Assembly (NCBI GenBank): GCA_002205965.3
Contig: NADL03000050.1
Location: 310,001 to 374,000 of the forward strand
Direction: 5' to 3'
DNA: 64,000 bases
DNA from: Kappaphycus alvarezii
Taxonomy: Eukaryota > Rhodophyta > Florideophyceae > Gigartinales > Solieriaceae
Shown here: positions 868-63,988 of the stretch, piece by piece
How positions within the stretch are numbered: the stretch's first letter is position 1
Layout of the letters: each line of letters opens with the position of its first letter
Notes under the pieces: model-generated
The model's input: the letters and a program-made list of their open reading frames with translations, nothing else
Databases searched by the model: none
Told to the model about the DNA's origin: nothing
Program-made: the position numbers and the translations under genes

Positions 868-1056
868 ACGCTGCGGTGACGGTTTTGTCCAACGCAGCAT
901 GCCTTACGGCTGGCCTCACAATAGCCTTGTGAAGTCGTACCTTATGACTCGGCCTCATTTTTTCAGACTCTCTTATACACATACCTGCCCCCCTGGTCTT
1001 GTAAAATAGCCGTCTAACATCTCCAGTCAGTAAAGCACCCCAAATTTACCCCCTTC
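868..1056 (+). repeat. SR1 long copy with 5' block
   Basis: The 5' block (about 877-925) contains TTGTCCAACGCAGCATGCC followed by ACGGCTGGCC. It matches blocks at 63800-63860 (plus) and, reverse-complemented, at 1615-1660, 1770-1797 and 40620-40655. About 100 bp downstream is the 3' block CAGTAAAGCACCCC with a C-rich end at 1012-1056. The same 5'-to-3' order and spacing at 63790-63988 and 40508-40655 suggest a full-length SR1 of roughly 190-210 bp. Confidence 0.6.
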
Positions 1057-1460
1057 AGTCATAGTGATGCGAAAGAGAACCTCTCCAAAGTTTTTTCTTC
1101 CTTTCAGCTATGCTCTCGAACATATACTATCCGTCAAGAGCTCCAGGGTCGGACTTGGACACCCAGTTCCTATGCACCAGCGACAAAAAGTGTGAAAGGA
1201 TTAAACTAAGGAGTGCTGGGCAGTGCCAAACTTTACGGGGAAATGCCCTTTTGCAAGGAACTCCGTTTAGATTCCCCCCGCTAGAAGTGTCACACGACGA
1301 ATTAAACTACACCATCATTCCCCCTTTTGCAAGCGACCTCTCAAACCGAGTCAGCGTTAGCAGCCCGCGAGCAGAAGCAGTTAAATCTCCGTCGCACCAT
1401 GAAACTTGCCCGAAGGCGCACACAGAGAGGCTATACAGGCGTTAGGTTCACTAGATGCAC

Positions 1461-1530
1461 GTAACGCATTAGCCGCGTGGATATAACGACCACATCTTCG
1501 ATGCATTAAAATAACCCAAAAATTCCCCTC
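1461..1530 (+). repeat. SR1 copy, 70 bp
   Basis: It starts GTAACGCATTAG and ends in AATTCCCCTC, the same two boundaries as the copy at 11590-11659 whose insertion is proven by a split protease gene. The flanks GATGCAC (1454-1460) and GATGTGT (1531-1537) may be a decayed target duplication. They share only GATG exactly, and the remaining differences are mostly transitions. Confidence 0.7.
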
Positions 1531-1592
1531 GATGTGTTACAAGTGGGAACGTTTGGGAAGTTTAATATTTGGAAAGTAATGTCATTTTCTCA

Positions 1593-1800
1593 AGGAACTA
1601 CGCTTCCTAAAATGCTACCTTCAGGCCAGCCATCAAGCAGGCCGCATTGGACATGACGGCTCAAGTGAGGCCACATGTCCCATTACGGATTGAGGCGAGT
1701 AGGTGTACGCTTACACAGTAAGAGGTTTGAAGCGTGCCCACGTCAACATAGAGAACAGGCTGGGGCCCAGCCATCAGGCAGCAGCATTGGACATTGATAC
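1593..1800 (-). repeat. SR1 5'-block fragments
   Basis: The stretch 1593-1660 matches the 5' part of the 145-bp copy at 33080-33224: AAGGAACTACGC, a CCTAAAA block, then CTACCTTCAGGCCAGCC. It continues into GCCGCATTGGACATGACGG. A second, shorter copy of the CCAGCC to GCATTGGACATT block lies at 1770-1797. Both are in reverse orientation relative to the 3' tails that define the plus sense of SR1. Confidence 0.55.
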
Positions 1801-2474
1801 CGCTGGGGCGTGCCTTTAAGTGACTCTTTTAACCATTCCATGTGTCTCCATAGTCCGTACTGCCACATTCCGTGCGACGTCACTTAGCACGCGTAAGCAT
1901 CCGGGTGCCAATCCGAGGGTGTAGATGGGGACGGGAATAAGTCTATCTCTGGCAAAATTCGCTATGAATGACTAGTATCTCCTACTTTTTTTTGCTACAC
2001 TAGGGAGCGTAGTTCCTCCCCCATTACTTTGTCGACATACCTTTTTGAGTCGATTGTGGTTGTCTGGAAAACCTTAGGATAGATTGAATATGACTTCAAA
2101 GAGTAAAACACCCAAACCTTTTACCCTTGAGTGAGGTCAGCGGGTTGTTAAAGTCGCAAACTCTCCTGCGGGAGGGTTCCAAGGGGTGAGGAAGGTGTTT
2201 TTCAAGAAGCCCGTTCCGCCGGTATTCCCTAATGCGGTAATATCGGTTATGGTGCGTTGAAGTCCTTCTCGCAGTTCCACGACTCGGTGTCGGGCTGTCT
2301 TTTTTCAAACCACTGGCAGTAGAATGACCTGACGGTCTTGACGCCGCTTCCCATTAATACTTGAGCCACAACGAAAATTCTTTCCGTTCTGTGCCAGTCC
2401 AAAGTCCGGAGATGGGGCTCAGTACACCCATTATTTCTTACAGGGGAGAGCCGTAGAGGCCCGAAAATCCTGCC
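1801..2474. other. Noncoding, one SR1 copy at 1990-2122
   Basis: The only recognisable content is an SR1 copy in plus orientation at about 1990-2122. Reverse-complemented it matches 33080-33224 and 43418-43522: TTTGGGTGTTTTACTCTT, AATCTATCC, TTTTCCAGACAACCACAATC, then a run to GGAACTACGCTCCCTA. It has lost the GGCCAGCC end. The ORF at 2096-2308 (minus) overlaps it and has no recognisable product. Confidence 0.6.
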
Positions 2475-3027
2475 TCATTTTGTCGCCGAGGGTAGCTCTT
2501 GTTGCATCCTTTCGTGATTCGGTGGTTCGAGGCGTTCGGCGCATTGTGAACAATTTTGGAACCAGCTCGCAAATTGCTCTTCTATCAGTGGACTTGAAGA
2601 ATAACTTTAAGATGTGCAGCCGCTCTGCATTTTTCAACGCCGTTCGAGCTTCTTCCCTGGGAGTCGTATTGCCACAACACCGACCAGGTGTTCCTCTGGA
2701 CAGGCTTCGAGACAATACAGAGTGTTGTGGGTACTCAGCAAGGAAACCCGCATAGCAGCCTGATATTTGCACTTGTACTTCACCCCATTGCTCTTGAGAT
2801 CTAAGAATATCTGCTGCATGCGGTGAGGAGGACACAGGATCGGATATACTTCTAGAGTTGTGGTATCATGAAAACGGCTATATTGCCTCTAAACACAACG
2901 TAATGGTCGAGGCGATAGCTAATGTCTCTTTGTCTGAGCCCAAATGTCGTACCCTTCATTTGGCAGTCTCCAAATGCAAGGTGCGGTGGCCCATTAACCC
3001 TTCCACGTCGGTTCAGACCGCACACCC
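2475..3027 (+). pseudogene. Non-LTR RT remnant, family X
   Basis: This is a broken copy of the RT domain seen more fully at 16935-18455. In order it shows the segment DLKNNFKMCSRSAFF (equivalent to DLRNAFN..SRSAFF), a frameshift, then TQQGNPHSSLIFAL, more stops, then a third-frame stretch from LWYHENGYIASKH. The catalytic YRDDG of the better copy reads YHENG here (tyrosine codon at 2864), so both aspartates are lost and the copy cannot be active. Its end at 3027 is the exact left boundary of a copia LTR, so the LTR element inserted into, or truncates, this pseudogene. Confidence 0.75.
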
Positions 3028-3588
3028 TGTAAAATTTAAATGATATGCGTAGATCCAAAATAGATGATTCGAAATAAGTGAATAATTAATTACTTGAATA
3101 GGATTGACGATAACAGTAAAAACGAAACAAATATTTATTGGTCTACGGGGTAGTTCGATCGCCCGAGGCTTGCAAAATTTTTCTGACAGTCTAAGACTAA
3201 TTGTACTGCAGATCAGAGCAGAAAAGCTACAAAGATGATTCCGGTAGTATATCAGTTTTTGTAGACCAAATTCATGCCCAGTAATAATTGTTGAATAATT
3301 CTTCAGGTGATCAATAATTTAAATAATAATTTGCTGGCAATATAATTTCAGTAATTATAACTGCAGAATTTAAAAACCAACTGACAGACATAAAAATTGC
3401 TTCTTCTGTAATACAGTATAGAACATGGACCAGTGAAAATAGATACAATTATTTTCGATGATTCACAATAAATAAAAATTGTTGACCTCCGAAAAAAATT
3501 GTTCCACAATTTTTCATCACTGTATTCGATATGGAAAACCAATCAAATATTTTTCCAATACTTGCAAAAATATTTTCCATTTTTCGCA
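3028..3588 (-). repeat. 3' LTR of copia element B1
   Basis: This is a 561-bp AT-rich LTR read on the minus strand, bounded TG...CA. It is homologous along its length to 44546-45199, 48824-49362 and 61057-61623. Shared landmarks are the start TGYGAAA followed by GGAAAATATTTTTACAAG, a TAGTTCGAT to CCCGAGGCTTG block, and an end of CATTTAAATTTTACA. A polypurine tract flanks it immediately upstream in the element's sense. Confidence 0.9.
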
Positions 3589-3602
3589 CCACTTCCCCTT
3601 TG
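3589..3602 (-). other. Polypurine tract of B1
   Basis: On the minus strand this reads CAAAGGGGAAGTGG and directly abuts the first base of the 3' LTR. The equivalent site of copy B2 (48809-48823) reads AAAGGGGTAGTGG, also directly before its LTR. This is the expected position of the plus-strand primer in LTR retrotransposons. Confidence 0.85.
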
Positions 3603-6600
3603 AAATTTATGAATATTATATATTATTATCCTGCTGACTGAAATGAATCACGGGATAAAGTATTGCTCATATCCATAGGTGTAGATCCATCAAATAGAAG
3701 AAGCTTGAGTGTATCGGACGCAGGACTTCCCTTTTTTGTTAACGGGTCGGATGGATTAACTGAGCCAGGTATCCAAAGCAGATTCTTCATTTTGTTTGAT
3801 TCAAAATCATATCTCATTAACGGGACATCAGCTCTTATAGAATTGTCTCCAGTTACACGACATGTGGAAGGAGATCTGAATAAATCCTTCGAGTCCACAG
3901 CAACATGTAGGGGAACATGAATATTGAGTATCTTACTGTATGCTGCTGCAATAATTTTCCCTTCTTCAATAGCTTTACCAGCAGCTAATATTGCACCAGA
4001 TGCAATTGGTAACAGGGCGCCGTGATAAATGTTAATGCCAATAAATTGTATGAAATATAGATTTGCAATTTAAGGAACCAATTAAGAGTCCAGCAATACA
4101 TCCAACTTGTGCATTTGTCAGGTCTGTAGATTTTCGTGCATCAGAAATGACAAAAACTGATAAATTAAAATTTTCAGAATTTTTAGGGCGTCTATATGTA
4201 CTAGTAGAGACTAAGGACTTTAAATTTAGTTACATAGAAGATTGAATAGGAAAATCACGAACCAATGGATTCGACCTTCTTTGTTGCAAGTACTGGCTGT
4301 AAATGCAGATATAGGAGAACCAGCCATGCCCAAATAGACAATCGAACTATTCAGAGAATTAAAGGGGAAATATTCAAAAAAATCATTTCATCTGATTGTT
4401 TCCGGAGATTTCCGGAAACATTAATCGAGCGGTGTAATTTTAACACCATTACAATTGAAAGTACCAGGCATGTGCACTATTGATCCAAAGCTTATATTTG
4501 TTTCAAAGGTTTTGAATAAACTTTCGCTTGAATTGATCCTGTCCATCAATAAGAATATAATGCACCAATTTCACAACAAGTAGTATCAATGACCTTTTTG
4601 AGCACATAAAAAATAATTGAGGTACATAAACGACTAATTTTAAACTAAGATAAAAAAGGTATTATCCGAATGTATTTGCCATTTTGCATTCGCGTTGACT
4701 AAGCCATTCCATGCAGAAAATAATAACCAATAAAAGAATTTCTGTGCATTCTCGAGGGGGCCTCACGTAAACATCGCGAAGTTCTGATCCAGATTGTAAA
4801 AATGCTGATTTGACGTCGACCTTTGATAAATTCGTTGTTTTGTTTTGTTTTGTTTGTATTTTATTGTTTCAACTTATCCTCATTTCCATGTGGAGTAGTC
4901 CGTGCCTTGTAATAAATTTCCGTCATCTAAAATTTCAATCTCGTATAAAACCTGAATGGATATTACATTTGAGTCCGGAGGAGTTTTTGAAACATAAATT
5001 TTCGAACAAGTTCTTAAAAGCCGTTTTCTTCTGTGCTGTCTGCATTCAAAATAATGTGACATAGAAGTCCCGATGCTTGATGAAGTAAAAACTCTTTAAA
5101 CCAAACCTCTTATAATAAAAATCGAGATCTTGTTTTTCCGAATATCTCAATTCTGTTCTAGGCAATATTTCAATTTCATGAGCATCAACTGCACTATTTT
5201 CATTCAATGGAATGTGAATTAAATTTTCAGGCTTAAGAAAGTAATTTACGGTTTCAATCGGTGCATGTTAAAAAGATAATACATTTTTAGATTCTGAAAT
5301 ATTATCATCATTTTCTGCTTCAATTTGGTTAAAGTCAGGGTCATAGAAATGTTCTTCTATATTGTTTCCACATAAATTACTGATTTCATGAGTACTTAAT
5401 TGTTCACAATTCTCTGAATTTCATCAAAGAACTACCAATTGACTCGTTCAATAAATTATTCGCTTTTTGAGTTTGATACGCGAGTTAATTTGACGAGACT
5501 GAGTGACGAACGTATTCAATTGCTGCATTAATAAATCTTCCATTAGATCCAGGAACTGTAGCAATAAGATATTTTTTGTCTAATTTCATGACTGGTTTTG
5601 GAGATGACCACGATCATCTTTTTGGTTTGGCGGATGAATATAAACTTCCACAATATCGCCAACAGTAATTGAATTATCGGACACAGACTTCGATTTTAGG
5701 ATAACATTTAATTTCCTCTTGGCAATGAGCTCATAATTAGCCCTTTTTAAATCATTCGGTATAATTTTAGGAACAGTATTATCGATGGGTCTGATGTTAC
5801 CAGTGGCGAGTTCTTATGAAGAGACAAAATCGTTTCCATATATCTCATTCGATATTTGAAACATTCGAGCAACGCGAACCGTATCATTTCCATGTGGTTC
5901 GGATGATTTTAAACGTAGGACTATATCTCTAAATATTTTGTGTTTCGATTCAATAGAATTTATGTTGTGGCGGCGGGAACCAATAGGACAAAATAAAATC
6001 CTTTTTTCTTCTATGTAGCTTTCAAAAATATCACTGTCAAACACCTGATCTCCCATTATATTATTAGGGTCCCAAAAGGTTGTTAACCAGAGAGTTCAAA
6101 ACAATGGATACAATTTTCCATTTTCAAGGACGGCACAATAGCACCAGTGGAATATCTGGTAACTGAGTCCATGCTGTGAAAAATATCCAAAATTTCCACA
6201 AAAAAAGTGGTCCACACATACCAATTCATTACATCAGCGAGATAGAGAACTTATAGATACTTTACGAGGATGCGATCTTTTCTTTGTGACATCTCAAAAT
6301 TTGCAAGAGTCAACTATGTTTGATAAATATATTTTGTATTCATCGTCCCAGAAAAAAATTCTTTGTAATAATAATTACATACCGTATCATAATAATTTGA
6401 GTGACCACATACATGTTTTTGGACCTTATTAATTATTTTCTTTTTTTCCGCCCAAGATAGTTTTTTTTGCTGTACTGATATTGTTGGAACACATTGTTGA
6501 TAGAAGTGAATTTTCCATACGGTCGGAGGTTTGTATAAATATATTTCCGGGAACATAACAATGATGACCATGATCCACCAATATTATTAAATCGGTTGAA

Positions 6601-7118
6601 TTATTTGCGGAATTGAACTCTATGCGGTTACCCGCCATAGGAATAATATTTGACTTTTTTGTAACATTTCTTCCGATAATCCATTGCGATTATTCACTAA
6701 TTATCAGATGCCTTATTTTGACCTGATTACCATTATCCCAAATAGCGGATACAAAGATAAAGCCGTCTATATTTTTTTTGCTTAAATGAGCTCCATTTCC
6801 ATATTGCCATAAGGGAGTTCCTCTGAAAGATTCTGGAGAATCATTTATATTTCCACTCTATTCAGGTAACGTAAAATCTGAAAGTGCCCGTCATTCGATA
6901 ATTCCCATTCAGCTATACGGTGCTCCATCATCAAGTAAAGACCTGGGTAAGATTCGTTTGATGGAGAATCAAGCACAGCTTTAGCCATATGAAATGTTGC
7001 AGAACCAGACATATATTGTTTTTATTATTTCCGTATTTTCCATTTTTGATGATGACCCTTTCAAATTTTTAGTATCCTTGCATTTATCTTTTCCGTAAGC
7101 CCAATGTCCAATTTCAGC
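3603..7118 (-). pseudogene. Copia-type gag-pol remnant B1
   Basis: This is a decayed internal region read on the minus strand. From its 5' side (high coordinates) come: a gag zinc-knuckle trace near 7080-7118, matching CDRCDEIGNW of copy B2; a protease region near 6550-6650; an integrase core around 6060-6200 with DSVTRYSTGAIVPS; an integrase end at 5814-6056 with RRHN..SIESKH and FRDIVLRLKSSEP; and an RNase H tail at 3626-3898 ending in NLLWIPGSVNPSDPLTKK. The order protease-integrase-RT-RNase H is that of Ty1/copia. Stops and frameshifts occur throughout and no 5' LTR is visible, so homology to B2 stops at about 7118. The base composition is strikingly AT-rich. Confidence 0.8.
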
Positions 7119-11129: not shown

Positions 11130-12720
11130 ATGGGATTGGTCTCAAAGGGAAGAGTTGTTCTGAAAACAAGAGATCAGGCTGTTGGTCGACCCATCACAAC
11201 ATGGAGGAACCTATGGAGGCAATTCGCAGAAATAAGACCAATCGTCAGTTCAAGTGCGCAGTCCGCAATGATGTTGATGAGACAGACGAAGATGCCGCCA
11301 TAGTCAACGAACTTGAGGATATTGCATCGCATATGATTACCATTGACGGCTCCAACCTGGATGAGAACTCTGGTCTTTCAGAGCATAGGACAAAATGTTA
11401 AGGAGGACGAAGTGTGAGCAGATTTTGCTACACAAATACGTCAGCCTGTTGCAACATGTACTCTAACTAGTCAATCCCATCAACCGTATCGCAACCGTAA
11501 GGAAGTTTTTATGATCTCCTGGTCGATACAGGGGCCGCTAAAGGGTGTACTCGTAAAGACCAGTACATGGCATACTGTCGACATGTTGGGTAACGCATTA
11601 GCGGCGTGGATATAACCGACCACATCTTCCACGCATTAAAATAACCCCAAAATTCCTCCTGTTGGACAAGCTCCAAACATTGACAATTACGCTCTGCTAG
11701 CTGCTGATTTAGTATAGTGTCGACGTCTGGAGGGATCCCACGAGTAGACTTTCTTATCGGAAACATTGTACTGACTTTTTACGTTCATATGAAGGATGTC
11801 GACATCCCTTTACTGCTCTCTTTAACATGGACCGGCTGGGGATTCATTACAATAATCTGGAAGATCAATTGGAGCACCCTGCTTAGGGTTAACATGCCCC
11901 CTTCAGACGTAAATTTGGACATACATTTATCATTTGGAATGCACCATTGCATTGATTTTTCAGCGAGAACGAGCTCAGGAGGCTCCATTGCCGTTTCGGC
12001 CACCCAATTGTCGACAAGCTCTACAAATTTCTAGCCAAATCTGATGTACACAGCGTAGACACTATTATACGCAGCATGTTGGAGATTATTGCCCGTACTT
12101 ATCACCCCGGCCAACGACATTCACCAAAGCCCCGTATACTCAAGTTCTCCTCCGTGTAGACAAACATTTCAACCACACTGTCTACACTGACATATTTTAT
12201 ATCAGCGTGCAGTCATTCTTTCTCGTAGTCGACGAGTCTCCCAACTACCAGGACGGACGTTGTTTTGAAGAGAGTTACATTGGATAACTTATTGTGCGCC
12301 ATTAGATTGTGCTGGATCGACGTCTAACATTTTGTCCCGCGGGCGTTATCGCCCACGATGCAGGTAAGGAATTTATGTCAAAAGCCTTCCAGGCAAATAC
12401 AGATTTGGTCCATGTCGAGACTGATCCGATTCCAGTTGAATCTCCCAACTCGAAGACTGTAGTTGAGATATACAGCGGGCCAGTACGCAGAGCCTACAAG
12501 ATAATCAGGGAAGCGGCCCCAACCGTGGAAGAAGAAGCAGCATTAAAGTATACCTTTAAGTCAGTCAATGACTCGCCGGGGCCGGACGGGCCAGTTCCCA
12601 GCCTCTTCATGTACGGTTCCTTGCCGCGTCTCGGCTTCCCTCTGACCCTTCGACCCGTCCATGTAGTAAAGGTCAAAAATGAGCCCACTCAACCCGCCTG
12701 TTGCAGGGGGAGTATCATGA
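11130..12720 (+). pseudogene. Copia gag-protease-integrase remnant D
   Basis: Domains follow in plus-strand order. A gag knuckle and acidic linker lie at about 11150-11395 (GCWSTHHNMEEP, then NDVDETDEDAA). A retroviral-type aspartic protease at 11508-11700 has LLVDTGAAKGCTRKDQYMAYCR, split here into LLVDTGAAKGC and KDQYMAYCRHVG by an SR1 insertion. A pre-integrase block near 11950-12015 has FFSENELRRLHCRFGHP. The integrase core at 12170-12650 has VYTDIFYI, FLVVDESPNYQ, KEFMSKAFQ and ESPNSKTVVEIYSGPVRRAY. The same order and motifs occur in copia C at 55.3-57.3 kb. RT and RNase H are absent and several frameshifts are present. Confidence 0.85.
11590..11659 (+). mobile_element. SR1 insertion, 70 bp, in copia D protease
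   Basis: The protease frame reads ..YCRHVG up to 11589 and resumes with QAPNIDNY after 11659, so the intervening 70 bp are an insertion. It is flanked by TGTTGG at 11584-11589 and again at 11660-11665. If the duplication is taken as 10 bp, TGTTGGGTAA versus TGTTGGACAA match at 8 of 10, both differences being transitions. The inserted sequence starts GTAACGCATTAGCGGCG and ends CCCCAAAATTCCTCC. Confidence 0.85.
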
Positions 12721-13038: not shown

Positions 13039-13852
13039 TCAAGCAGAAGTCGGGTGCTCACCTGGCTGGCTTGCATCCTTGAAGACAGAATAAAAAACGA
13101 GTAACGAAATCTCGCAACTCGAGCGTCGCGGAGGAATGTCGGCGGCTGGCAGCGAACGAAGCGAGGATTCGAAAAATTTAGAACCATTCTCCCCTACCGC
13201 ACCATAAGTATCGATGCCGAAGGGCACCGTTAAGATACCATTGGCGTCAAAGTAGTCGCCAGAGCGCGAGAACTTTGCGTGTTCGGCGAGAGACGCAGCG
13301 GTTCCGAGAGACAAGGCGCTGGTGGACGCCAGTGGGGGTCGCATTAACATCCAATGCGATACCCTTGGCGCAGAGGCCGAAGGCGACAGGTATGTACACG
13401 TTCATACGGAGAAAAGGCGAGGAGTGTGAGGGGGTGACCGGAGCTGGTGTTCAACGAGCGCACTAATACCAAGTTCGTCTCAGTAGGTATGGAGGGCATT
13501 GCGAAGGACGCTGTGACGCTGGGTTTGTCCGTCATCGTACTTGCAGGTCACTGCGTGTTGCCATCGGGTCCAGAACTAGAGCGACGTCAATGGAGCGGCG
13601 AGAGCAGACCGGTGGGGAGCGCCCCTCAGCTAGGTGAACAAGGCTGAAAGAGGCGACAACATTTGGGCCACAAGCGAAATAAGGCGGGTAAACAGAAGTT
13701 ACATGTGGAAAGACGAGTTTGGACCTTGCTTCCCGGCGAGATTCATTAATACAAACAAAAATGTCCGTACGTATAGGATGAAGCCCAGGATTCTGCGTGC
13801 TTAAGGGATTCTTTAAACGCTGGCATTGAGCCGCCCCTGTAAGGAATGTCAT
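13039..13852 (-). pseudogene. Family Z CCHC/RLE fragment
   Basis: Read on the minus strand, the fragment begins near 13620 with CSRRSIDVALVLDP, the start of the CCHC block also present at 31620-31680 (CSRRSADIAPVLDP). A frame change follows, then an endonuclease-type tail at 13039-13350 with GTAASLAEHAKFSRSGDY and GIDTYGAVGENGSKFF. The corresponding stretch of Z at 31061-31447 is GAAATLAEREKHRHYG with GIDIYGALGDDGKGFF. The fragment is 5'-truncated and frameshifted, as expected for a dead non-LTR copy. The stretch upstream of 13620 has no recognisable content. Confidence 0.75.
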
Positions 13853-13865
13853 GTAGTGTTACCCA

Positions 13866-13955
13866 TCAGTGACGACTTATCCCGCATGACGCATTAGCGG
13901 CGTGGATATAACCGACCACATCTTCCATGCATTAAATAACCCAAATTTTTCCCCC
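13866..13955 (+). repeat. SR1 copy with upstream block
   Basis: It contains ATCAGTGACGACTTATCCCG, then GACGCATTAGCGGCGTGG, ATAACCGACCACATCTTCC, ATGCATTAAATAACCC and a T5C5 end. The upstream block matches 458-475 and, more loosely, 63920-63945. No convincing target duplication is visible. Confidence 0.75.
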
Positions 13956-15370
13956 TTCTTTAACCTGTAGCGAAATTCTCACGGCACAGATGGCTGTTTT
14001 TGAAGCGCGCGGTGGTGGGACAGGGGATCAATTCGTTGGCTCGCGGTCGATTTATTGTGGTTTGGAATGCTTGTGTGCGCCAATCACAATAAGCTAAACC
14101 AAATTACTTCAAAAAAACACCCGCGACAAGCTTTTCATTCACTGTGGCATAAAACTGCGCCAGGCAGCTTGTTTTGTGAGGAAAAATTAGGGAAAAAAGT
14201 ACTGAAAGGAATCTTGTCGAGAGGGTATAATGGGCCGGTTTATTGCAAGGAGTACGAATGCTGAGAGTCGTTTCAACTATAATTCAAACCGATTGACAGT
14301 ATTTACAGTAAAATCACCATACAAGTGGGTAACGCGTGTTCACAAACTGTAACAGATAAGCTGGCCTACATCCATACAAGCTGACTGGGTTTCAGCCAGC
14401 CTATCAGATAATCTTGCTGATACCCATACAAGTTGAATGGGCATCATCTAGCCTAACTATTCCAGTGAATGAACCCCCTGTGTTGTCGTACAAATATCAA
14501 AGCATTATATCCCGAGCTAGAAGTGTCAGACGACGAATTAAAATACCCATCGTTCTCCACCTTTCTATCAACTAAGAGTACCAACCTGTCGAGAGGGCGG
14601 CAAAAATAATTCCATTGGCCGAATGCCATTTTCGCCACAGGGTACGTTTCCAATTTGGTCACTGCAGACAGTAAGCACCGCCCACTGAGCTTGATACCGC
14701 GAAGGTGACATTGAAGAGATTTGTGCCTCCACTGCTATCTACGGTAGAGCTTTGACTCTGCCCTGTTTCTCATGTAATCGTTTTGACCTGCCTCTTCGAT
14801 CTACAGACTACGGCTTTCTCCAGATCTGATCTGAGCATTTGGTCCCAGCTAAAAGTTTATGAAGTCGCACAAAGTATTTCTGGAAACAGTATGTCGCGCC
14901 CGTTGACTGTATAAGGTGATCCTATGGATAGATCGGATAGATGTTCCGAGTTAAACACCGAAACCTTCCACCATAATCCTATCCCGCTGTCAAAAATTCA
15001 ATCGTTTGTTGAACATCCGAGATGGAATCGACTGAAAACATTGGTGAGCTGCGGTAACGAGGGTTTTCTTTTCTCTCCTCTCTTTTAATCAATCATCAAA
15101 AACTATTGCATGTATTTCATCTGAAACTTTCGGAACCTCACTCGTCGCCGGTAATGCGATTTCTTCCCCTTGATACGGCGACACTTTACAAATCATTCAC
15201 CGACCCATTCGCCGGATCTGTCTCTCACAACATACTTTTGTCAATTTCGACCCTCCGGTTAACCTTCAATGGATCGAAATACAAAATTCAAACCTACTTG
15301 TATCAATTTTGAATGAATAGACCCGTACTAGCGGCCTATCGCGAGTATCTCTGCAACAAAATCTTCGGTT
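13956..15370. other. Unrecognised region with local repeats
   Basis: No frame resembles a known protein. At 14350-14455 two degenerate tandem units share CATACAAG(C/T)TGA(C/A)TGGG and AGCCTA. At 14515-14545 a 30-bp stretch, GCTAGAAGTGTCAGACGACG followed by AATTAAAATAC, repeats the sequence at 1280-1310. Its AATTAAA tail resembles SR1 ends, but the relation is unproven. Confidence 0.45.
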
Positions 15371-16102: not shown

Positions 16103-16165
16103 GTCGAGCTTTGGTACTTTGCTACTCGGACTACCAACCAGACAGGACAGTCATTTATCACCTCC

Positions 16166-16222
16166 AGCGGCGTGGGCAGAACCGACCACATCTTCATGCT
16201 TTAAAATTACCCAAAATTCCCC
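16166..16222 (+). repeat. SR1 copy
   Basis: The core AGCGGCGTGGGCAGAACCGA, CCACATCTTCATGC, TTTAAAATTACCC and AAAATTCCCC follows the order of the 11590 copy. The flanks show no obvious duplication. Confidence 0.75.
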
Positions 16223-18455: not shown

Positions 18456-18597
18456 TCTGGTGTCTGCTCGTTGTGATATTTCTGCGAGTCGTTCCGCCTT
18501 CCTGTAGAAGGAAAGGGTCCGGGTACTTCGATTGTCTGCTCGAGAATTGTGTCCGAGAGTTAGATTAATATTAATAATTGTAGTCGAAGATGTACTA
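18456..18597 (+). repeat. Rep-1, left fragment (copy 1)
   Basis: This 130-140 bp matches 49363-49500 at the left end of Rep-1 copy 2. Shared landmarks are TTGTGATAT, CTTCCTGT, AAGGAAAGGG, CTGCTCGAGAATTGTGTC, TTAATATTAAT and GAAGATGTACT. In copy 2 the sequence continues straight on. Here it is interrupted after GATGTACTACTC by element Y, and Rep-1 resumes at about 20661. Confidence 0.75.
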
Positions 18598-20226: not shown

Positions 20227-20660
20227 GTGTCTACCCGTCCAAGTACTGTCCTCATATGAAGCACACTTTGTCCTCATATGAAGACAGTTTCCGTTACATT
20301 TTGGAAAGGTAAATGTTTTGGAAGCTCGAAATTTTTACTGCAAAAAAGGTTTTTTTGGTAAGTTACAGTACAGTAATTCTTACTGTACATGCGCCTTCGT
20401 TTTTGAAACCCCCACGATAATACGAACTATATTTTCTTCCAAAATTAAGCCATTTTCACAACTTCTTGCGAAGAGCGGAAGCTGGTGTGGGAAAACTGCT
20501 CTAGCCTTCACTGAGGTCAATAATCTAGAACATTTTTTTTGATCGGCCATCTACACTCATGAACTAATGCTAAGGGACAAGAAATGCGCTGAGGTAAAAA
20601 ATTATATTGTAGAAAGTGCTAAAAGTAGTCCTCATATGAGGACAACGGTCCAATAGACAC
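20227..20660. mobile_element. 434-bp TIR element (MITE), TA duplication
   Basis: The left end GTGTCTACCCGTCC, then TGTCCTCATATGA, is mirrored by the right end, whose reverse complement is GTGTCTATTGGACC then TTGTCCTCATATGAGG. A TA dinucleotide flanks both sides (20225-20226 and 20661-20662), as for Tc1/mariner-type targets. The palindrome TCCTCATATGA occurs twice at the left and once at the right. The interior has no transposase frame. It shares the terminal GTGTCTA with the 9.1-kb element at 50251-59389 and sits at the 3' tail of Y. Confidence 0.85.
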
Positions 20661-33224: not shown

Positions 33225-33234
33225 TGGAAGTGAA

Positions 33235-40655: not shown

Positions 40656-40740
40656 GCATGCCTCTGAGGAAGTACCGCACGACTTACCATATGCCTCCAT
40701 CGCCCTAACGGCCACGTTCCGCGCGACGTCGGTTAGCACC

Positions 40741-43213: not shown

Positions 43214-43223
43214 ATTTGTGAAA

Positions 43224-43284: not shown

Positions 43285-43293
43285 TTTGTGAAA

Positions 43294-48100: not shown

Positions 48101-48808
48101 ATCAAAAACTCCTCGGACTCAAATGTAATATCCGGTCACATTTTATACAGATTAAAATTCTAGATGATGGAAAATATTATTGCAGGCACGGATTGCTACG
48201 CATGGAAATGAGGACAAGAAAAAAAAATATAGAGACAGATTCCTAATGTTCCTCCCCAATGGCAATTAGAATGATTATATCCATTGCTACAATTTTAAAA
48301 GGGATTTTGTCAAAGGGATGCCAAATCAGCATTTTACAAAATTGCATCAGCACTACGACATGTTTATGCAAGACCTCCTCGAGAATTCACGAAATATAAT
48401 TTTATTGGTCTAGTTAAGCGATTGATAAATGTCAGTTACATTCGGATAATAGTTTTGTTGAACATGGTTTAAAATCGGTAGTTTATATCCTCAACTATTT
48501 TTATGTTTTCTAAAACGTCATTATTACAGCCTGTAGTGAAGTTTGGTTGATGATGTTTTTTATTACTGGACCGAAAAAAATTTTGGTCGACATTTATTCA
48601 AGAATTTAGGAAATTTTACAAGCTTGGTACAATCGTACATACTTCTGGATCTTTTAATTTCAATTGAGTTAAAACTAAAAAATTGATGCATATATGGTAT
48701 CCAAAAACTACTTTCAGTTGAGGTATTTGTATTCATGGATATAAACAAAAAAAATTACCTCGTGATTCATTTCAGTCAACAGGATATTAATATATTTATT
48801 CATAGTTT
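45200..48808 (+). pseudogene. Copia-type gag-pol remnant B2
   Basis: It is collinear with B1 but in plus orientation. At 45310-45660 is a gag-like frame (112 codons, WKFVHIITSI-type context). The zinc-knuckle relic CDRCDEIGNWDYEND lies near 45980-46020, where the expected histidine and last cysteine are changed. A protease to integrase region follows at about 46450-47000, and an integrase end near 47100-47270 with RVARMFQYRVILYGND (B1: RVARMFQISNEIYGND). RT/RNase H debris runs to 48800. Stops occur every few codons and the base composition is very AT-rich. It is certainly inactive. Confidence 0.78.
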
Positions 48809-48823
48809 TCAAAGGGGTAGTGG
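48809..48823 (+). other. Polypurine tract of B2
   Basis: CAAAGGGGTAGTGG directly precedes the 3' LTR start TGTGAAA at 48824, as in B1. Confidence 0.85.
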
Positions 48824-49362
48824 TGTGAAATTTGGAAAATATTTTTACAAGTATTTGAACACTATTTAATTGGTTTTCCTTATCGAATATAGTGATGAAA
48901 AGTTTAGAGCAGATGATGAAAAATTGTGGAGACTATTTATTTATTCAGAGGTCAACAGTTTTTATTTATTTGGAATCATCGAAAAACATTTCATCTATTT
49001 TTTCACTGGCCTATTTTTATACTGCATTACATGTGAATCAATTCTTATTTCAGTTGCAGAGTTTTTGTATTATGCAGTTATAATTCCTGGAATTACATTG
49101 CCAGCAAACTATTTTTTAGGATTACTGATCACTGAAGAATTATCTATTCTTAATACTGGGCATGAATTTGGTCTACAAAAACTAATGTACTGCTGGAATC
49201 ATCTTTGTTGCTTTTTACTCTGATCTGCGGTATAAATGGTCTTAGGCGGTTAGAAAATTCTAGCAGGCCTCGAGCCATCGAGCTGTTTCCGTCGAGCAAT
49301 AAATATAGGGTTTCTTTTTTATTTTTTCTCAGTTCTATTCAGGTAATTTATTATTTATTTAT
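48824..49362 (+). repeat. 3' LTR of B2, truncated
   Basis: It is homologous to 44546-45170 but stops at about 49362, losing the last 40 bp or so that end in TTTTTACA in the other LTRs. Rep-1 begins at the break. No continuation of the LTR is found beyond Rep-1 at 60654, so this is a truncation rather than a clean insertion. Confidence 0.85.
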
Positions 49363-50250
49363 TTGGTCTGCAGGTTGTGATATCTTCTTCGACTCTTTCC
49401 GTCTTCCTGTGCAAGGAAAGGGGCCGAGTATTTTGACGTCCTGCTCGAGAATTGTGTCTGAAAACTAAATTAATATTAATGATTGCAGTTGAAGATGTAC
49501 TGCTCTCAATACTTACTGTATTTACAATTCAATCTAATTTCTTTCTTCAGGTCTCTTCAGAGCGGGATGTATCTTCAAAACTAATATTAACGGTAAAATT
49601 AGAATATATTCTCACATATTTAAGTTATTGCCTTAAATTAAATTTTTCATTCTACCCTTCTGCACTGGATATTTTATTAGAACTTTAAGGGCCCCAAAAT
49701 GATCAGTTTCATTCGGAGGTAAATTCATACATTTTCTAGATACTAGATACAGATGTTACTTAAAAATTAAAGGTATTCATGAGCTTAAATATATAATTGT
49801 AAGTGCCAAGTGTTCCGATCTATATACCTCCCTTACGGTTCATACATTTCTGAAAATAAGAGGTTTAAATATCTCTGCAATGATATTAATGTACCGTATA
49901 CCGAGAATAAGAAAGGATTCTAGAAAATCGCTCAGAGTTGGGTAAGAACGGAACATTTATTTGCTGACCAGACATTCAGTTTTATTTTATTTACCTCCAA
50001 GTGCTCTGTAATTGTAAAAAACATGAATTGGTTACAAGTCTTCTAATTTGGGGTACGCAATACGTGTTGCTCCCCAAAACCACTATTTCCAAAACTTTAG
50101 TATCTAACGGTGATTATAGCCAATTTCGTTATGGGTGTATTTTTTACTTTTTAATAAACTAGGACATTAATTCTGCATCTCAAATCTCTGTTCTGTATCG
50201 AAGATCTCATTGGGTGTTTTTCGTCTTCAGTTCCGATTCAATGGCTACTA
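49363..50250 (+). repeat. Rep-1, left part (copy 2)
   Basis: This is uninterrupted where copy 1 is split by element Y, and so gives the original order: the 18456-18597 block followed directly by the 20760-21488 block. It ends at GGCTACTA, where the TIR element starts. It resumes at 59390. No coding potential recognised. Confidence 0.85.
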
Positions 50251-53640: not shown

Positions 53641-56600
53641 CTCACTGATTTTCTTTTGAAGTCCAAACTTCAACTAGTAATACCCTACTCCCACCCTGTG
53701 GCTGTGTGTCAATAGTGTGTTAGTCGATATCAGTTTCAGCAAGGGATGAGATTCCTGTAAGAGTTCTCTTCTTGTTAACCCTTCAGCCGGGTTGAGTCAA
53801 TATACGCTCCAACGGGTTCTTTTCGGCATGCATGAGTCCAATGTGTGCTGCATTAAATACGCCAGATCATAACCGTATACTAAAGCTAGCAGTTCAGCGG
53901 CCATAATCGATCTTGTAACACGCCGACATTTGGCCGAGCCATAAATGAAGAACATTAGCGAGGCCTGAGGCATCAGCTAGGACCAGTACAAAACCAAGCT
54001 GAGAAGATTGGCCCTCAGCATTTGCAAACGGCATCTGTGAACAGCATCAGCCTCAATGAGTTCAGGTCCAGTTCTACGAACCTGAGGGCAACATCTTTAG
54101 CGCGGCTTATGTAATTTTGACTTTCTTCATGCGGTTGAATGTCTCCGTTGTGGCTGCTTATTCACACATAAAGTGTATAGGTCCTGCAATATCAGGACGA
54201 GAGCAACCAGCGATGTATTGAAGTTTAGCACGGAGGCTGACAGCATCTGCTGCGGTTTTAGGGATACTTAGCGACAGCTTATCAGATTGGGAAATAGTGT
54301 AGTCGCCACATGGAAGTCTAGAAATCTTGATACCATTGAATCGTACAGATACTACAGGCTTCAAAATTCTCGGTTTTTGATAAAGCGCTCAACTGCTTTA
54401 GCTTTGTTTTTCAGAAATTTATCATTTCCAGTACCATATGAATCATCCACTTGTAGGACTGCTATGTCGGGAAGTTTCCGAGGTAGTTACAGTTGATATA
54501 TTCCCTTTGAGGTCCTCTTACGATAAGAAAATCATGGGTGCTGCTGCAGCCTCCATTTTAAGATTGCTGACGTGATGGTCATGGTAAGTCTCAAACCAGT
54601 AGAAGCCCGATTTAGGTATACCATGCAAGGGCTTCACAGCCCGAAGGACGTAGTGCGGTCCAAGATTCATCTCCTCTGGAGCTCTCGAGATAGACAGGAC
54701 GGTCTAGTTCTGAATCGCTCTGAGTATAGCCTGGGAAATATCCCGAATGTAAGAAAATCAGTCCTTGCACATGGCTGCAATTGTAATGACAAGGCGCTGA
54801 GGCCCACCGGGTTACAGTGGGTAAATTGGTCGAAGACATCCGGCAGCTGCACTCGGTAGTTTCAGGCTACCAGGCGAGACTTCAGGTATTCCGTGCTGTC
54901 TGGGTGCTTTTCTCACCTCGTCAATGAATCCAGTCTTGTAAATCCTGAGTCCTTCCGGGTTTTGAGACGCGATACAACTTTAAATACTTTGTTACTTGCC
55001 AGAAAATCGAGCTCTTTCTTCCTGGCAGCTGTGAAATTGAGAGCTTTGGTCCGCTTAAGATCTGATGTTGCGATATCATTTTCACCATCATCAAGCATAT
55101 TGTAAACAGTATCTAGGTTGTGAAAGTCATCTGCAGGTTGTGGTGCCTTTTTCACTGCCGTTGATCTGAATATTGTCCTTTCCTGCGGCATTTGGACACA
55201 GACCGTTTCCCCTTCTTTGTCAATGAAAGTGAACGGCCCTTCTCATTGCTTGCTTTGATTCCGGTATATGAGTACCTGAGATCCTGGGAACATCTTTTCC
55301 AAGTCTGGTCGCTCTCTACCTTTAGGTCCAACGTGCCTCAACCAAGCTGTACCCTATTCATCGCATGAATTCGTCGCACTTGTTTCATTGCTTTGTTGAT
55401 AGCAATTGCCCTTTCCTGTTGGCTTGGGGTTGGTGTTTTCCGGAGTGGTTTCGGTATTGCTCCGAAGACCAGCAGTGTTGGGCATAGACCTTCAGGTCTT
55501 ACTGTATCATTCACAGCTTTAACTGCCATTCGCAATACATCGTCATCCGATATTCTCTTTGTGTTAGACTTGATCTTCATGAAAGCAGATCGGAGTGGAC
55601 TGTGGTACCGTTCGACATGGCTCATTGTTTGAGGAGACTCAATAGGTGCCTCGAGCACTTCAATCCCTTCAGACTGCGCGCAAGATTTGAATTCCTCTGA
55701 TATAAAATTGCTCCCTTGATCAACGCGGAGGTAATCAGGTGGTCCGAGGTAAACTAGCGACCAGCATCGTAGTAACGCCTTCCATACGGTTTCTGATTTC
55801 ATATTGCGCAGGATGCTCGCCGCTTGAAAATGCGTCGATTCATCCACACAGTGCAGTACGCGAATAGAGCCAATATACATAATGTCAACAGCCAATATGT
55901 GATTAAACTTGGTTTCCTCCGTTCCTACTGTTAGTTTGAAGCGACGTGGTTTGGATGCGTGTTTAGCACAAGTTTGACATTCCTTGACTATTTGCTCCAG
56001 TTCGCTACGTACATCTGGATCATGGGGCCGAGCTCGTTTAAGTACTGAAGCCAAGGCGCGCGCAGATGGTGTCCAAATGAGCGATGCAGCTTCCGCAGTT
56101 CCGATTCTGAGTATAGGACCTGGTCTACCGGGTTCCACCTCAACCAAAGTAAATCGTTCTCTACCGTAAGATCGTGTCTTCTCCCGTTCATCAGCAAGGC
56201 ATTCTTTTGAATTGAGATTTCTGCTCCAATTTTTCTCATGTCTCTCAGGCTCAGCGCAGTAGTGCATTCGTGATCAACAATGTGGAACCACACATTTGCT
56301 GTGGTCTGCAGTCCCTCAATTGGTATCCTGACCAAAGCTTGTCCCAGCGTAGTCCTTATGCCTCCGAATCCCTGTATTTTCTTACGTCTTGACGCATCAA
56401 TATGTGGCGTCTCCAGAGCAGCAGGGCATAAATGTTCACGACAGTACGCTTTGTATTGGGACAGGCTCATGACACTGGATCTGTTAGCGCCAGTATCGCA
56501 CATTACCCCTTTAAATTCGGACTGGTAATCCTCATCACGGGACAGTTCTTCGTTCATTCTTTCCATTTCATGTGCCTTCCTCATTCCAAACCCATGCATA

Positions 56601-58306
56601 AACGTACGATTGGCTAACTTCCCTTCCAATTCGTTGTTAACAACATCAAGTCCATAGTTGACGCTGTCCGTGGCGCTGTCATCATCGCTGTCCGAGTCAC
56701 TGTTATCTCCATCTCCATCTGACAAGTAATCACAGACGTTAGCTACTTCATCCCGGGACAGGTATACACTTCCATGGCTCTTACGCTTAAAGCGATTTAG
56801 GGCTGCCTTAATTTCATGCGGAGGGTGCTTGTCTCTTGCAAAGTGGTCCTTACCACAGACATAACATCCATCAATAATTGCCTTACTCATCTTATTTCCA
56901 GGGTGGCGTCTATTGTTCCGGTATTTGCGATTCGCACGGCCACCAAAGCGGCGTTCAGCATGGTAGTTAATTTCATCATTAATAGCATTGTGGTTGTCTG
57001 AGTCTATATCAGATTCCAACGACACGTATGTTCTTGCAGAGTTTGGTTCCGAAGACAGCAATGCAGCTATGCGTTGGTTCGCCTCATGCGAATCGGATGG
57101 CACTCTTTCCCTGAAGGCTCTGCGCATTTGTGTATTATCAGCGCACCTTACCAACTGGTCTCGGAGGAACATGTCCTTATGGTAGTCTGGATGTAGTTGA
57201 CGCTGTATGGAGGATAGCTTAGATGTCAGCAATCTAAACACAGCCACCTGTGACTTCTCTGGATTTAGACTCATGTAAGTGGATAGCTTAATATTTTGCC
57301 ATTCCTGAAGTAATCTGCTGCGTTTTCATCAGAGGTGTACCATGCGATGAGCTTCTGCGCACACTCCTTGTACGAAGTGGATGTTTTCTTGATGTTCGCA
57401 GTGAAATAGTCCAATGCGCATCCGTCCAACATGGTCGGCATTGCACGCCATTTGTCCGAGTCCGTCAATAAGTGCATCTCACAGAGCGTGTCAAACATAT
57501 CCAAAGCAGCAACAACATCGTCGTCCCACTCACCTTTGAAGCGCTTGCGATTTCCATACTCTTTGCCAATGGCTTGTATAGCTTGGTGGTTCTCCCTCGC
57601 AATTTTCGCCTGGGGAATTGCTTTTGTTTGTAAACCAGATTGGCCTGTTGCATCACCAGAAATATCGACATGAATGTTCGTATGCTGTTGTGCATGCATC
57701 TTCGTGGGTCTTCTACTGTAGGGATACCGTATTTTCTCCTCATGATCGGTCTGCGATAAGGTGGAGCTTCCATATCAATTACTTTAGGCTCGGGTACAGA
57801 TCCTTTCTCACTTCTGATCTGACGGTCACCTGTTGGTGCAGATATCTGACGGTGTATATCAGCATCAGCAGCTTCTGCTCCTGGGTTGGTTCTGGCAAGA
57901 GGACAAGGTGACGCTCGAAGACAAGCTATTAAGCATCTGCTCTAGTGATTTGTGAGCCCTTCTCCACACGCAGTCCCCCTTCTATTAACAATTTTCGTAG
58001 TTTGACGAGGAATCCACTACTTATGTTTCCAATTCCTACATCAGTCCATGATCGCGATGCTTCGTACCATAGTTCTTCTCCTGTAATCTCACACTCCTTC
58101 AATGCGTCAATGACGTCTTTAGTGTAGCCTCCAAGTTCCCTCTTGTATTTTGCAAGCTCATCTACATTGGCATTTCCCCAGGGTGTCCTGTTCGTCACCA
58201 TCATACGTAATAGTACCTTCCGTTTCCAACAGTGCGTTCTCCATTCCTCCCTCAACGATTCCTGTTCTTTCTCCCATTTCGACGTTAGATCTAACAGTTA
58301 TATAAC
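53641..58306 (-). pseudogene. Copia C gag-pol, all domains present
   Basis: Minus-strand order: gag (57929-58255 and 57271-57699, WRAMPTMLDGCALDYF); zinc knuckle CYVCGKDHFARDKH near 56825-56870; protease CDTGANRSS near 56490; pre-integrase LRKLHRSFGHH; integrase AVDIMYIG, VDQGSNFISEEF and MSHVERYH (D, D and E all present); RT from 55191 with SDSELDRPVYLE, a Y.DD-equivalent LQVDDSYGTG near 54441, and AKLQYIAGCSRPDI; and RNase H at 53850-54364 with FANAEGQSSQLGFVLVLAD and, after a frameshift, GSAKCRRVTRSIMAAELLAL. Several frameshifts and stops are present, so it is inactive as read, but it is the least damaged element here. Confidence 0.93.
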
Positions 58307-61056: not shown

Positions 61057-61623
61057 TGTAAAAGTAAAATGAATTGCGTAGGTCCGAAATAGATAATTCC
61101 AAACAAATGAATAATAAATAACCTGAGTAGGACTGAGAATAACAATCAGAATGAAAACCAATATTTATTGATCGACGGGAATAGTTCGATAGCCCGAGGC
61201 TTGTTAAATTTTTCTAACAGTCTGGGACTATTTATACTGCAGATCAGAGAAGAAAAGCTACAAAGATGATTCCACCAGCATAATATTTTTAGACCAAATT
61301 CATACTCAATAATAATTATAGAATAATTTTCTAGGTGATCATTAATCCGAATAATAGTTTGCTGACAATATAATTTCAATGATTATGACTGTAGAATTTG
61401 AATCAATTGACAGGAAAAATTGCTTCATGTGTAATAAAGTGTAAAAAGTGAGGCGTTGAAAAAAGATAAAACTATTTTCGATGATTCGCAGTAAGTAAAA
61501 ACTGTTGACCCCTGATGAAAATGGTTCCATAACGTTCCACAATTTTTGATGACTGTATTCGATACTGAAAACTAATTAAATAGTTTTCCAATACTTGTGA
61601 AAATATTTTTTTCAATTTTCGCA
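61057..61623 (-). repeat. Solo LTR of copia B family
   Basis: A 567-bp LTR homologous to 3028-3588, bounded TGTAAAA ... TTTTCGCA on the plus strand. It is flanked by ATTGT at 61052-61056 and 61624-61628, a perfect 5-bp target duplication. The internal region is absent, as after LTR-LTR recombination. Confidence 0.92.
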
Positions 61624-62168
61624 ATTGTTCACTACTTTTACACCTTAGGTATTGGTCTATTTACAAAAGTATTTGAGTTTTACGTTAAACGATATATGTG
61701 CTGCTTTCATCATCCATGACATTCCCATCTTAATTACGCATCCTGACTTTCATTTTATGACTTTGCACACCTATCCAGTTCCAATCTGCATCAAAAGTAT
61801 AGATGGACGGAGTTGTGTATTGGTTCTTAATAATAACAGCAGTGACCGAATACGACATTCGACAAAATGCCGATGCAAAAGAGTGGTACTTTTCGGATGA
61901 ATAAAATCTTTACAAATCTCACATAATTTCATAAAGGTTTGCAGTTCGTATCACTGTGCTCCTCTTCCACCTTACAATATTTTCTACCTTACAATATTTT
62001 GATGATCTGTTTCTTTACTGCAGATATTAGTAAATGAAAGGCGTCATGTCGCACGAAAACAAGTCTAATCATTATTTGTACCACATCCCACCATCGGACA
62101 CAAAGTAAACATCCCTCGAAATCCTATTTAACTAGTCCATTCTATCCATTTCACAAGCACTTTTCCCA
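61624..62168. other. No recognisable gene
   Basis: AT-rich sequence with an 82-codon plus frame (61652-61900) of no recognisable family. A short direct repeat of CTACCTTACAATATTTT lies near 61970-62000. Confidence 0.5.
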
Positions 62169-62540
62169 TCAGCAGTGCTTGCTTCGCTCCTCAGAACGCG
62201 GGACATGACTGATATGCATATTCGTACGATAATATGAACAAGGGATTTCACAACAATCAAATTGTGGTTTTAGTGCGATATCTACGAGAAATTTTCCACA
62301 CGTTTGTGCTGGCGTAGAAGTTAAAGCGCTTGTTGTGTCTGTTGTATGAAAGATAACCCTACCATCACCCATGAATACATGCATGGCTCCAAAGCTGAAT
62401 ATAAATGTTCGTTGAACAGGAAGAGACAATAAAATCAGCAGATTCTGTCGTGCTCTACGGTCAAACCGAAAGACGGAAAGGGATTGGATGCAGCTGACGT
62501 TACCATCAAAGCAAACCTGTACATCGGGAGATTCGTTCAA
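62169..62540 (-). CDS. Unrecognised ORF, possibly an exon
   Basis: A 123-codon minus-strand frame bounded upstream by a stop; its outer codon is TTG, not ATG. It is cysteine- and hydrophobic-rich (SLSVFRFDRRARQNLLILLS, FSFGAMHVFMGDGRVIF). No family recognised and no repeat relation within the window. A potential 3' splice site (TGTACAG, about 62518-62524) precedes it in the minus sense, so it could be an internal or terminal exon of a host gene. This is weak evidence. Confidence 0.3.
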   Translation of the reverse strand: MNESPDVQVCFDGNVSCIQSLSVFRFDRRARQNLLILLSLPVQRTFIFSFGAMHVFMGDGRVIFHTTDTTSALTSTPAQTCGKFLVDIALKPQFDCCEIPCSYYRTNMHISHVPRSEERSKHC

Positions 62541-62788
62541 AATGCGTCAAGGCTCTAAGTTTGACACAACGACCTTATCGCCTGTCCAGTCAAAGCGCCA
62601 GAAAACAACTTTTTTCTTCGACATTCGCAAGATCCAAGCTGCCAAATGCATACAACCGATATAATTGGCATTCGGATTTCGTTTTGACGCCCAGTTTCAT
62701 CCAAAATCAGCACAGATTAGCGGCAAGATTTTAGCAATGCAACATTCGCTGTTGATGAGGTCGGAAACCTCTTCAGTTCCGCACTGAG

Positions 62789-63127
62789 TCACAACCCTGT
62801 GTAACCTGTTCTGCTCTTCAACAGAGTAAGCAGGAGCTCTCGTTGATATGAATTGTCACCATTCTGCCTTGGTTTCATTCTCGACGGTCTCACACTCAAA
62901 ATCCTACTGTTTGTTGAGTTGATTCCTACGCTTGCGAAGGCATCGATGGCTTGCAAGTGATGGAGGAATGCTTTCGATTTTTCCTTACTCGAAGCGACAT
63001 TGATGCTGCGGTTTTTAGAGGACGGAAGGGCGCGGGGTGGAGTGATGGGAGGAAATAAGCGAAAAAGAGAGCTAAGGATTCGGCGCACCGCGTTGTAGCC
63101 AGTTAAGAGGCAGTTGAGGAAGCTCAT
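62789..63127 (-). CDS. Unrecognised ORF starting with ATG
   Basis: A 112-codon minus-strand frame with a true ATG at 63127 (MSFLNCLLTGYNAVRRILSS) and a basic, serine-rich middle (SKNRSINVASSKEKSKAF). Upstream in the same sense is pyrimidine-rich leader-like sequence. It ends about 250 bp before 62540; the ORF at 62169-62540 might belong to the same gene if an intron separates them. No family recognised. Confidence 0.35.
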   Translation of the reverse strand: MSFLNCLLTGYNAVRRILSSLFRLFPPITPPRALPSSKNRSINVASSKEKSKAFLHHLQAIDAFASVGINSTNSRILSVRPSRMKPRQNGDNSYQRELLLTLLKSRTGYTGL

Positions 63128-63789
63128 GAGGGCTCGAGCGGGATGTAGAAGGTGTAGTACAGGTAAGTATTGTTGTAATGGAGTGTATATTTGCTGGTTG
63201 TTTGATGACCCGGAAACGGTGAAGATGGAAGGGTTGCGTTTGGGTTGGTGAAAAGTTGAGGCTTTTGTATTTGTTTCAAGGGAAGGTAGCGACTTCAGAA
63301 TTGATGCCTGTGTTTTTATGCATAGTCATAAACTGAACTATGTTGAGATCCGCGAAATGAGATACACCCATACATAACAGCTACTTGCGATACGGTTTGC
63401 GAATCCTCTGATATTTTACCTTTGTTTCCTTCAAGGTCTTTCAGATGAACTGTTTCAGGCGGGAAAGCAGAGGAAGGTGGTACAAACAATGCGCGTGGAA
63501 TTAAGATATTGTATAGAGGCGCGGAATTTTGCAGGGCTAATAGATTCAAATCGCGTTGGGTTCAACCCAGTTGCCGCCATGAAGTTTATGCATAGGGCGC
63601 ATTGCTGCTACGTATACGGTACCGCTATTTTCCTCACCGGATCGGACTTTTCACGTGACATGAGGACGAAACTGGGAATATTTTGTGCTGTACATTACAG
63701 TACAGTACTGTACTGTACATTATCGCCCAACCGAAAATTGAATGGAAAATTACTTGTGTGGCATAAGTTGCACCGCTAAACGAAACTCA
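63128..63789. other. No recognisable gene
   Basis: Short frames only. A palindromic stretch CAGTACAGTACTGTACTG lies near 63695-63712; a similar shorter one is at 60668. Confidence 0.5.
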
Positions 63790-63988
63790 GTCTTAACACA
63801 GCGTCATGCCGCAGCTGCAGCGATGTCCAATGCGGCGTGCCTATTGGCTGGCCTCTAGCCAGTTTTCTAGCGTTTTGACGGCTTCCCGCCAATCCTTTAT
63901 ATCGTAAGCTTTTACCCACATCACGACATCACTCAGGGAACAGCTGACCACATTTTACATGGATTAAAAACACCCCAAATTTTCCTCC
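63790..63988 (+). repeat. SR1 long copy
   Basis: The 5' block GCGATGTCCAATGCGGCGTG then TTGGCTGGCC (63810-63855) and the 3' block CAGCTGACCACATTTTACATG, quoted as CAGCTGACCACA and ACATGGATTAAAAACACCCC, with TTTTCCTCC end (63940-63988), are about 90 bp apart. The upstream CATCACGACATCACTCAGGG matches the blocks at 458 and 13866. With 868-1056 it gives the best view of a full-length SR1. The window ends 12 bp later, so the right duplication may be cut off. Confidence 0.65.

Follow-up and report, generated by a model that had tools for sequence, protein, structure and literature searches.

Truncated copies of long interspersed nuclear elements (LINEs), such as those of human L1, have a common 3′ end, a variable 5′ end and flanking duplications. 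For LINEs that encode a restriction-like endonuclease (RLE), excerpts of PMC7650587 describe 5′-truncated copies of R2 as common and the BLAG elements of the German cockroach as randomly located, and an excerpt of PMC4640811 credits the HERO clade with many non-specific families. The present analysis concerns SR1, a group of short sequences in a window of 64,000 nucleotides from the red alga Kappaphycus alvarezii (contig NADL03000050.1, positions 310,001–374,000). An earlier note, made from the letters of this window alone, had described SR1 as mobile sequences of 60–200 bp that share a short 3′ block. The best explanation, to which we give a probability of roughly 95%, is that SR1 copies are 5′-truncated insertions of a superfamily of LINEs with an RLE. 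The SR1 sub-types are the 3′ ends of related lineages, here called A, B, C, D, E and c, at least five and probably six in number.

The search for a longer element sharing the 3′ end, which the earlier note had proposed, was successful both in the window, where the element is damaged, and elsewhere in the genome, where long open copies occur. The window element is a lineage D LINE on the minus strand (40509–43414) with a reverse transcriptase (RT) and a putative RLE-type C-terminal region. Its translated pieces contain VDLKNAFNLYSRAAFLEAV as well as the C-terminal motifs, and its last bases are the SR1 block CACAACCGACCATATCTTTAAAATATTAAATTACCCACATTTCCCC. Compared with other copies of the same LINE at three loci, L048, L052 and L057, it is 79% identical over 43217–40509 and 76% identical over 43414–43334; beyond the point where the alignment stops, the element probably extends further in the 5′ direction, towards 44.2 kb.

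The assembly searched comprised 336,021,096 bases in 884 contigs. One SR1 copy yielded 1,636 first-look candidates and a lineage c copy 1,039, with 40 candidate copies scored in each search, and in several of the matched copies the sequence 5′ of the short homology enters a reading frame. With an RT piece there were 8,122 first-look candidates; 129 of these were scored and 130 matches listed, with open frames of up to 1,230 amino acids. Twenty regions were fetched around RT matches, and 10 of them have stop-free frames of 1,031–1,230 amino acids. A simple motif search placed the block directly downstream of the longest frame in 14 of the 20, and all 19 regions given to a profile search, which omitted the near-duplicate L043, proved to have a lineage 3′ end. 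For lineage c, the same LINE protein end (SNAACLLAGLPS) followed by the c 3′ untranslated region (3′UTR) was seen at one locus, L033. Long copies of lineage A are 97.6–99.7% identical over 2.4–4.1 kb and those of lineage C 97.1–99.4% over about 4 kb, while in lineages B and D some pairs exceed 99% and others are more distant. The "unusually small unit" of the earlier note is accordingly not supported: a complete element measures about 4 kb, and RT-bearing LINEs end in the SR1 block. Since this longer LINE exists, the short SR1 pieces are best read as its 5′-truncated copies.

Translated from stop to stop, the proteins measure 1,051 (A), 1,030 (B), 1,185 (C) and 1,229 (D) amino acids, and all four match the Pfam family PF00078 (RVT_1) above its gathering score (E values 7.7e-10, 2.5e-9, 9.8e-8 and 1.1e-9). 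Relative to the lineage A protein, identity is 68% for B, 67% for C and 72% for D, and 43% for a database protein, P0010. When a profile of these five sequences was compared with the PDB, R2 proteins were the best matches, at E 4e-13 over the RT; as the solved structures matched are of the R2 type only, this result does not separate the RLE clades (R2, R4, NeSL, CRE and HERO). The C-terminal stretch of the same profile matched R2 with an i-Evalue of 10, which is not significant alone. Two pieces, of 458 and 305 amino acids, gave chance-level matches only and no matches, respectively, in the PDB. In two protein database searches, about 8,000 candidates were scored each time; 13 and 32 of them, respectively, were relatives at E ≤ 0.001, and none of these carries an informative name. 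Downstream of the RT, the motifs CX4C-X9-HX3C and RPD-X13-D are invariant in all five aligned sequences. We take RPD-X-D to be a signature of the RLE, and the C-terminal region is assigned to a putative endonuclease of this kind by motifs that resemble those of RLE LINEs. The fit of the knuckle is approximate, because its spacing of CX4CX9HX3C differs from the CX2-3CX7-8HX4C given for RLE LINEs in an excerpt of PMC5678591.

Profiles of the 3′ ends of lineages A, B, C, D and c, built from other contigs only, found 17 matches in the window at E ≤ 0.01 (the weakest at 0.008), against a single match in 20 dinucleotide-shuffled windows pooled. With five additional short copies placed by eye, by blastn or by another model (245–292, 301–330, 14924–14972, 20761–20685 and 33276–33312), the block occurs at about 20 sites, in agreement with the earlier count of at least 15 loci. 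Fifteen of the 17 profile matches come within 14 positions of the model 3′ end. The two that stop before it are 1591–1662 and 1666–1937, both on the minus strand: the former belongs to a lineage B-like 3′ fragment at 1531–1662 whose block below 1591 was recognized by eye, and the latter is a C-like LINE 3′ fragment. As for the sub-types, copies with TTAAAATAACCC belong to lineage A; those with TAAAACACCC at 2000, 33079 and 43418 belong to B; 63786 is C, 40510 is D, and 38859 and 44716 are c. Lineage E consists of 768–1059 and 20685, and its model is the window copy itself, although 747–1049 is also recognized by models of other lineages. A 30-base piece of lineage A had no exact match among viral contigs.

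The shared 3′ end and differing 5′ starts that the earlier note described were also found: among the 27 best-supported copies, which come from the window and from other loci, lengths range from 28 to 218 bp and no two are equal. No poly-A tail was seen at the 3′ ends, again as reported. The claim of a common 3′ end stands with a correction, in that the end is slightly ragged and consists of a run of C or of C and T. No tRNA or Rfam match fell inside the copies at the thresholds used, A and B boxes not having been searched separately; the one tRNA gene of the window (38187–38260, found by both ARAGORN and Rfam) lies outside them.

Flanking duplications provide a second kind of evidence. The five that had been noticed in the window were all recovered: CCTTGCTGAG (10 of 10 bases) at the 74-bp lineage c copy at 38859–38932, TTTCACAAA (9 of 9) at the 61-bp lineage B copy at 43224–43283 that is nested in the LINE, CTTACACCCC (10 of 10) at the 105-bp lineage B copy at 43418–43527 on the 5′ side of the aligned LINE, and CTTTCACTTC/CTTCCACTTC (9 of 10) at the 151-bp lineage B copy at 33079–33227, all four copies being on the minus strand; and TGTTGG (6 of 6, scoring below 7) at the 70-bp lineage A copy at 11591–11660 on the plus strand. 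Across window and genome, 52 truncated copies were compared with a permutation in which the 5′ flank of one copy was paired with the 3′ flank of another. A duplication score of 7 or more was reached by 27 of the 52 (3.7 expected), and a score of 10 or more by 12 (0.16 expected). The test set aside matches ending more than 14 bases from the model 3′ end or lying near sequence ends (including 63786–63985), long copies (defined as matches starting within the first five model positions), 16 largely duplicated loci, and L001, itself part of the window; four copies from the window were entered manually. With windows widened and the lineage c model lengthened, the test supersedes an earlier version that gave 21 of 45 at a score of at least 7, with 2.25 expected. 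Within the window, nine of 17 truncated copies reach a score of 7, and those at 245, 447, 1450, 2000, 11577, 16114, 20685 and 44713 fall below it. The duplications are 7–16 bp long, and 8–13 bp in 21 of 27 copies; one lineage E copy, in L019, has a 12-bp duplication. Duplications of 10–11 bp also flank long copies of 2.4 kb in L044 (CTTCCTCACC), 3.3 kb in L046 (CTTTCGTTACC) and 4.0 kb in L050 (CCCTTTTAAG).

Unoccupied sites were found as well. The lineage c copy at 44716–44810 (plus strand) sits inside a long terminal repeat (LTR)-like repeat and is clearly absent from the same repeat at 3380–3480 and 48960–49060; it is also missing at 61400–61520, where the alignment is gappy. The copy at 43283–43224 is absent from L048, L052 and L057, whereas the alignment around 43527–43418 is ambiguous on its 5′ side. 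With duplications above the permutation control, unoccupied sites, and 5′ ends lying anywhere from 28 bp to about 4 kb from the 3′ end, target-primed reverse transcription with 5′ truncation, as the earlier note had proposed, is supported. The LTR-like repeats themselves (3027–3676, 44546–45199, 48735–49364 and 61057–61623) are 72–86% identical in pairs, have an internal part common to 4435–7116 and 48677–45993, and are the best marker in the window for unoccupied insertion sites.

The insertion sites are biased in sequence. Of the 27 copies, 12 have the dinucleotide CA immediately ahead of the duplication, against 27 of 189 mismatched-pair controls; CA makes up 6.7% of all dinucleotides, and against this background the binomial p is 6e-8. 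The first base of the duplication is C in 17 of 27 copies, and a T-rich stretch follows. The rule by which duplications were placed extends them into the terminal C run of the element wherever the flank has C, and it therefore raises C at the first base and, just before the duplication, disfavours C and favours A. The C one base earlier is unaffected by this rule, and it precedes A in 12 of 16 cases, against 27% expected (p = 9e-5). When twelve 3′ ends were aligned, the last 38 nt or so were visibly alike, although only seven of 105 columns were invariant and the mean column identity was 56%. The protein may read this terminal block of about 38 nt, and the RNA may pair through its C-rich end with the strand that is nicked. 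For R2, RNA–target similarity of that sort is reported as not required in an excerpt of PMC12203849.

A sequence of events can be proposed in which a LINE protein, presumably active, would nick one strand of the target, most often at CA|CTTT. The LINE RNA would be reverse-transcribed from the nick, starting at its C-rich 3′ end, where the terminal C run may pair with the nicked target. Reverse transcription would often halt within 30–200 nt, so that the short products would represent early stops of the enzyme, and a cut of the second strand some 10 bp away would generate a duplication of mostly 8–13 bp.

SR1 could instead be a true short interspersed nuclear element (SINE), separately transcribed, with its own 5′ end and a 3′ end borrowed from the LINE. 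In the window, copies below 220 bp are indeed much more numerous than long ones, and the lineage A copies at 1461 and 11591 begin at nearly the same base. The many lengths of the duplication-bearing copies, however, leave no common 5′ end, the sequence 5′ of one copy's "start" is present in longer copies and continues into the LINE reading frame, and at the thresholds used the copies gave neither a tRNA nor an Rfam match. We regard a SINE as very improbable. Mutator-like elements make duplications of 9–11 bp, which the typical length of about 10 bp at SR1 would suit, and LTR-like repeats are common in the window; the block might thus be the terminus of a DNA transposon or LTR element. In opposition to both, the longer element has a reverse transcriptase that matches R2 and the short copies lack a constant 5′ end, and where this was examined, in a single case, the block is an insertion within an LTR-like repeat. 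This alternative, even less credible than the SINE, was set aside because the block terminates RT-bearing LINEs.

Several observations weigh against truncated insertion of RLE LINEs as the origin of SR1. At a score of at least 7, 25 of the 52 truncated copies lack a duplication, and chance would supply about four of the 27 that have one. Only three of 18 long copies have a duplication of 10 or more (L052 has 9 of 10), in a test without a control. The longest frame falls short of 1,031 amino acids in 10 of the 20 fetched regions, four of these having 438–642, which means that many long copies are damaged, and no long open copy of lineage E was found. The fetched loci are, moreover, a biased set chosen by similarity to the RT or to lineage A, and no common RNA fold was predicted for 12 of the 3′ ends.

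The remaining window copies are varied. Among the plus-strand profile matches, lineage A copies at 447–546, 1461–1530 and 16155–16221 and a lineage B copy at 2000–2125 have no clear duplication, and a 139-bp lineage A copy at 13816–13953 is flanked by TTCTTTAA. The shorter copies, also on the plus strand, comprise a weak E-like block at 245–292 placed by eye; a lineage A 3′ end of 28–30 bp at 301–330, with sides CCCCAACTTT/CCCCAATTTT and with 302–329 identical to 1501–1528 of another lineage A copy; and lineage B copies of 50 bp at 14924–14972 (duplication ATCCTAT) and 46 bp at 33276–33312 (CTCATTA). On the minus strand, the lineage E copy at 20685–20761 has no clear duplication. Profile matches that carry more of the LINE, all on the plus strand, include a lineage E 3′ fragment at 747–1059 with the end of the coding region, the 3′UTR and the block; a D-like 3′ fragment at 33333–33504 that stops 13 positions short of the model end and whose flanking CTTATCTT may be chance; and a lineage C copy of about 200 bp at 63786–63985 that includes the coding-region end and, being so close to the edge of the window, falls outside the duplication test. 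Elsewhere in the genome, L008 holds two inverted lineage c copies at 1939–2138 with short AAATTTAC-like repeats between them.

Other elements accompany SR1 in the window. A second RLE-like LINE group occurs at 38147–33580 (minus strand) and 17756–20240 (plus strand). Its protein P0004 has CX2C...GDHAADLC and ELRPADILV and no Pfam match, and its 3′ ends enter TTC repeats (CATTAAACTTCTTC, AAAGTTTCTTCTTCTTC and CTTCTACTTCTTCTTCTTC), as if targeting a TTC microsatellite. The group includes a local duplication (34577–35939 and 36485–37850, 96% identical), and it is flanked, together with the tRNA-Val gene, by inverted copies of about 800 bp at 31790–32586 and 39857–39061 that are 88% identical. The minus strand at 55338–57325 holds retroelement frames in which a zinc knuckle (CYVCGKDHFARDKH) and a protease-like motif, DTGA, accompany a match to the integrase core (rve) just under the Pfam cut-off (E 1.5e-7, 32.0 of 32.6 bits).

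SR1 can no longer be considered a candidate for the smallest retroposon, as a known mechanism accounts for it. Instead, its copies can be viewed as a natural archive of target-primed reverse transcription, stopped early, by a dispersed RLE-type LINE, and copies of 30–80 bp would probably escape most repeat annotation. The new details are the CA|CTTT target-site bias and the C-rich 3′ end, and these offer testable handles on how a LINE chooses sites without strict sequence specificity. A wider proposal, offered tentatively and in our view rather more apt to fail than to hold, is that an undescribed group of RLE LINEs selects its template through a short primary-sequence 3′ block found in six lineages, pairs its C run with the CA|CTTT nick, and yields as its main product abortive insertions below about 200 bp, thousands of tiny tags in all. 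No title listed in a literature search, most subscription journals being outside its scope, describes the SR1 LINE family.

Set beside known systems, SR1 copies resemble truncated human L1 in their common 3′ end, variable 5′ end and flanking duplications; unlike L1, they have a C-rich end in place of a poly-A tail, and most window copies are shorter than about 220 bp. The SR1 LINE shares with R2 a central RT, a downstream Cys/His motif and what looks like an RLE-type C-terminus. In contrast to R2, it is not confined to 28S ribosomal DNA, its insertions having been seen within an LTR-like repeat, within a LINE and among diverse flanks. Recognition of the R2 3′UTR depends primarily on structure according to the excerpt of PMC12203849, whereas the SR1 lineages are alike in the sequence of their last 38 nt or so and have no common predicted fold. 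HERO and BLAG, compared by description, are similar to the SR1 LINEs in being RLE LINEs with dispersed insertions. Dispersed insertion by RLE LINEs, as in HERO and BLAG, and 5′ truncation, as in R2, are thus already known, and SR1 is in most respects an ordinary case of both.

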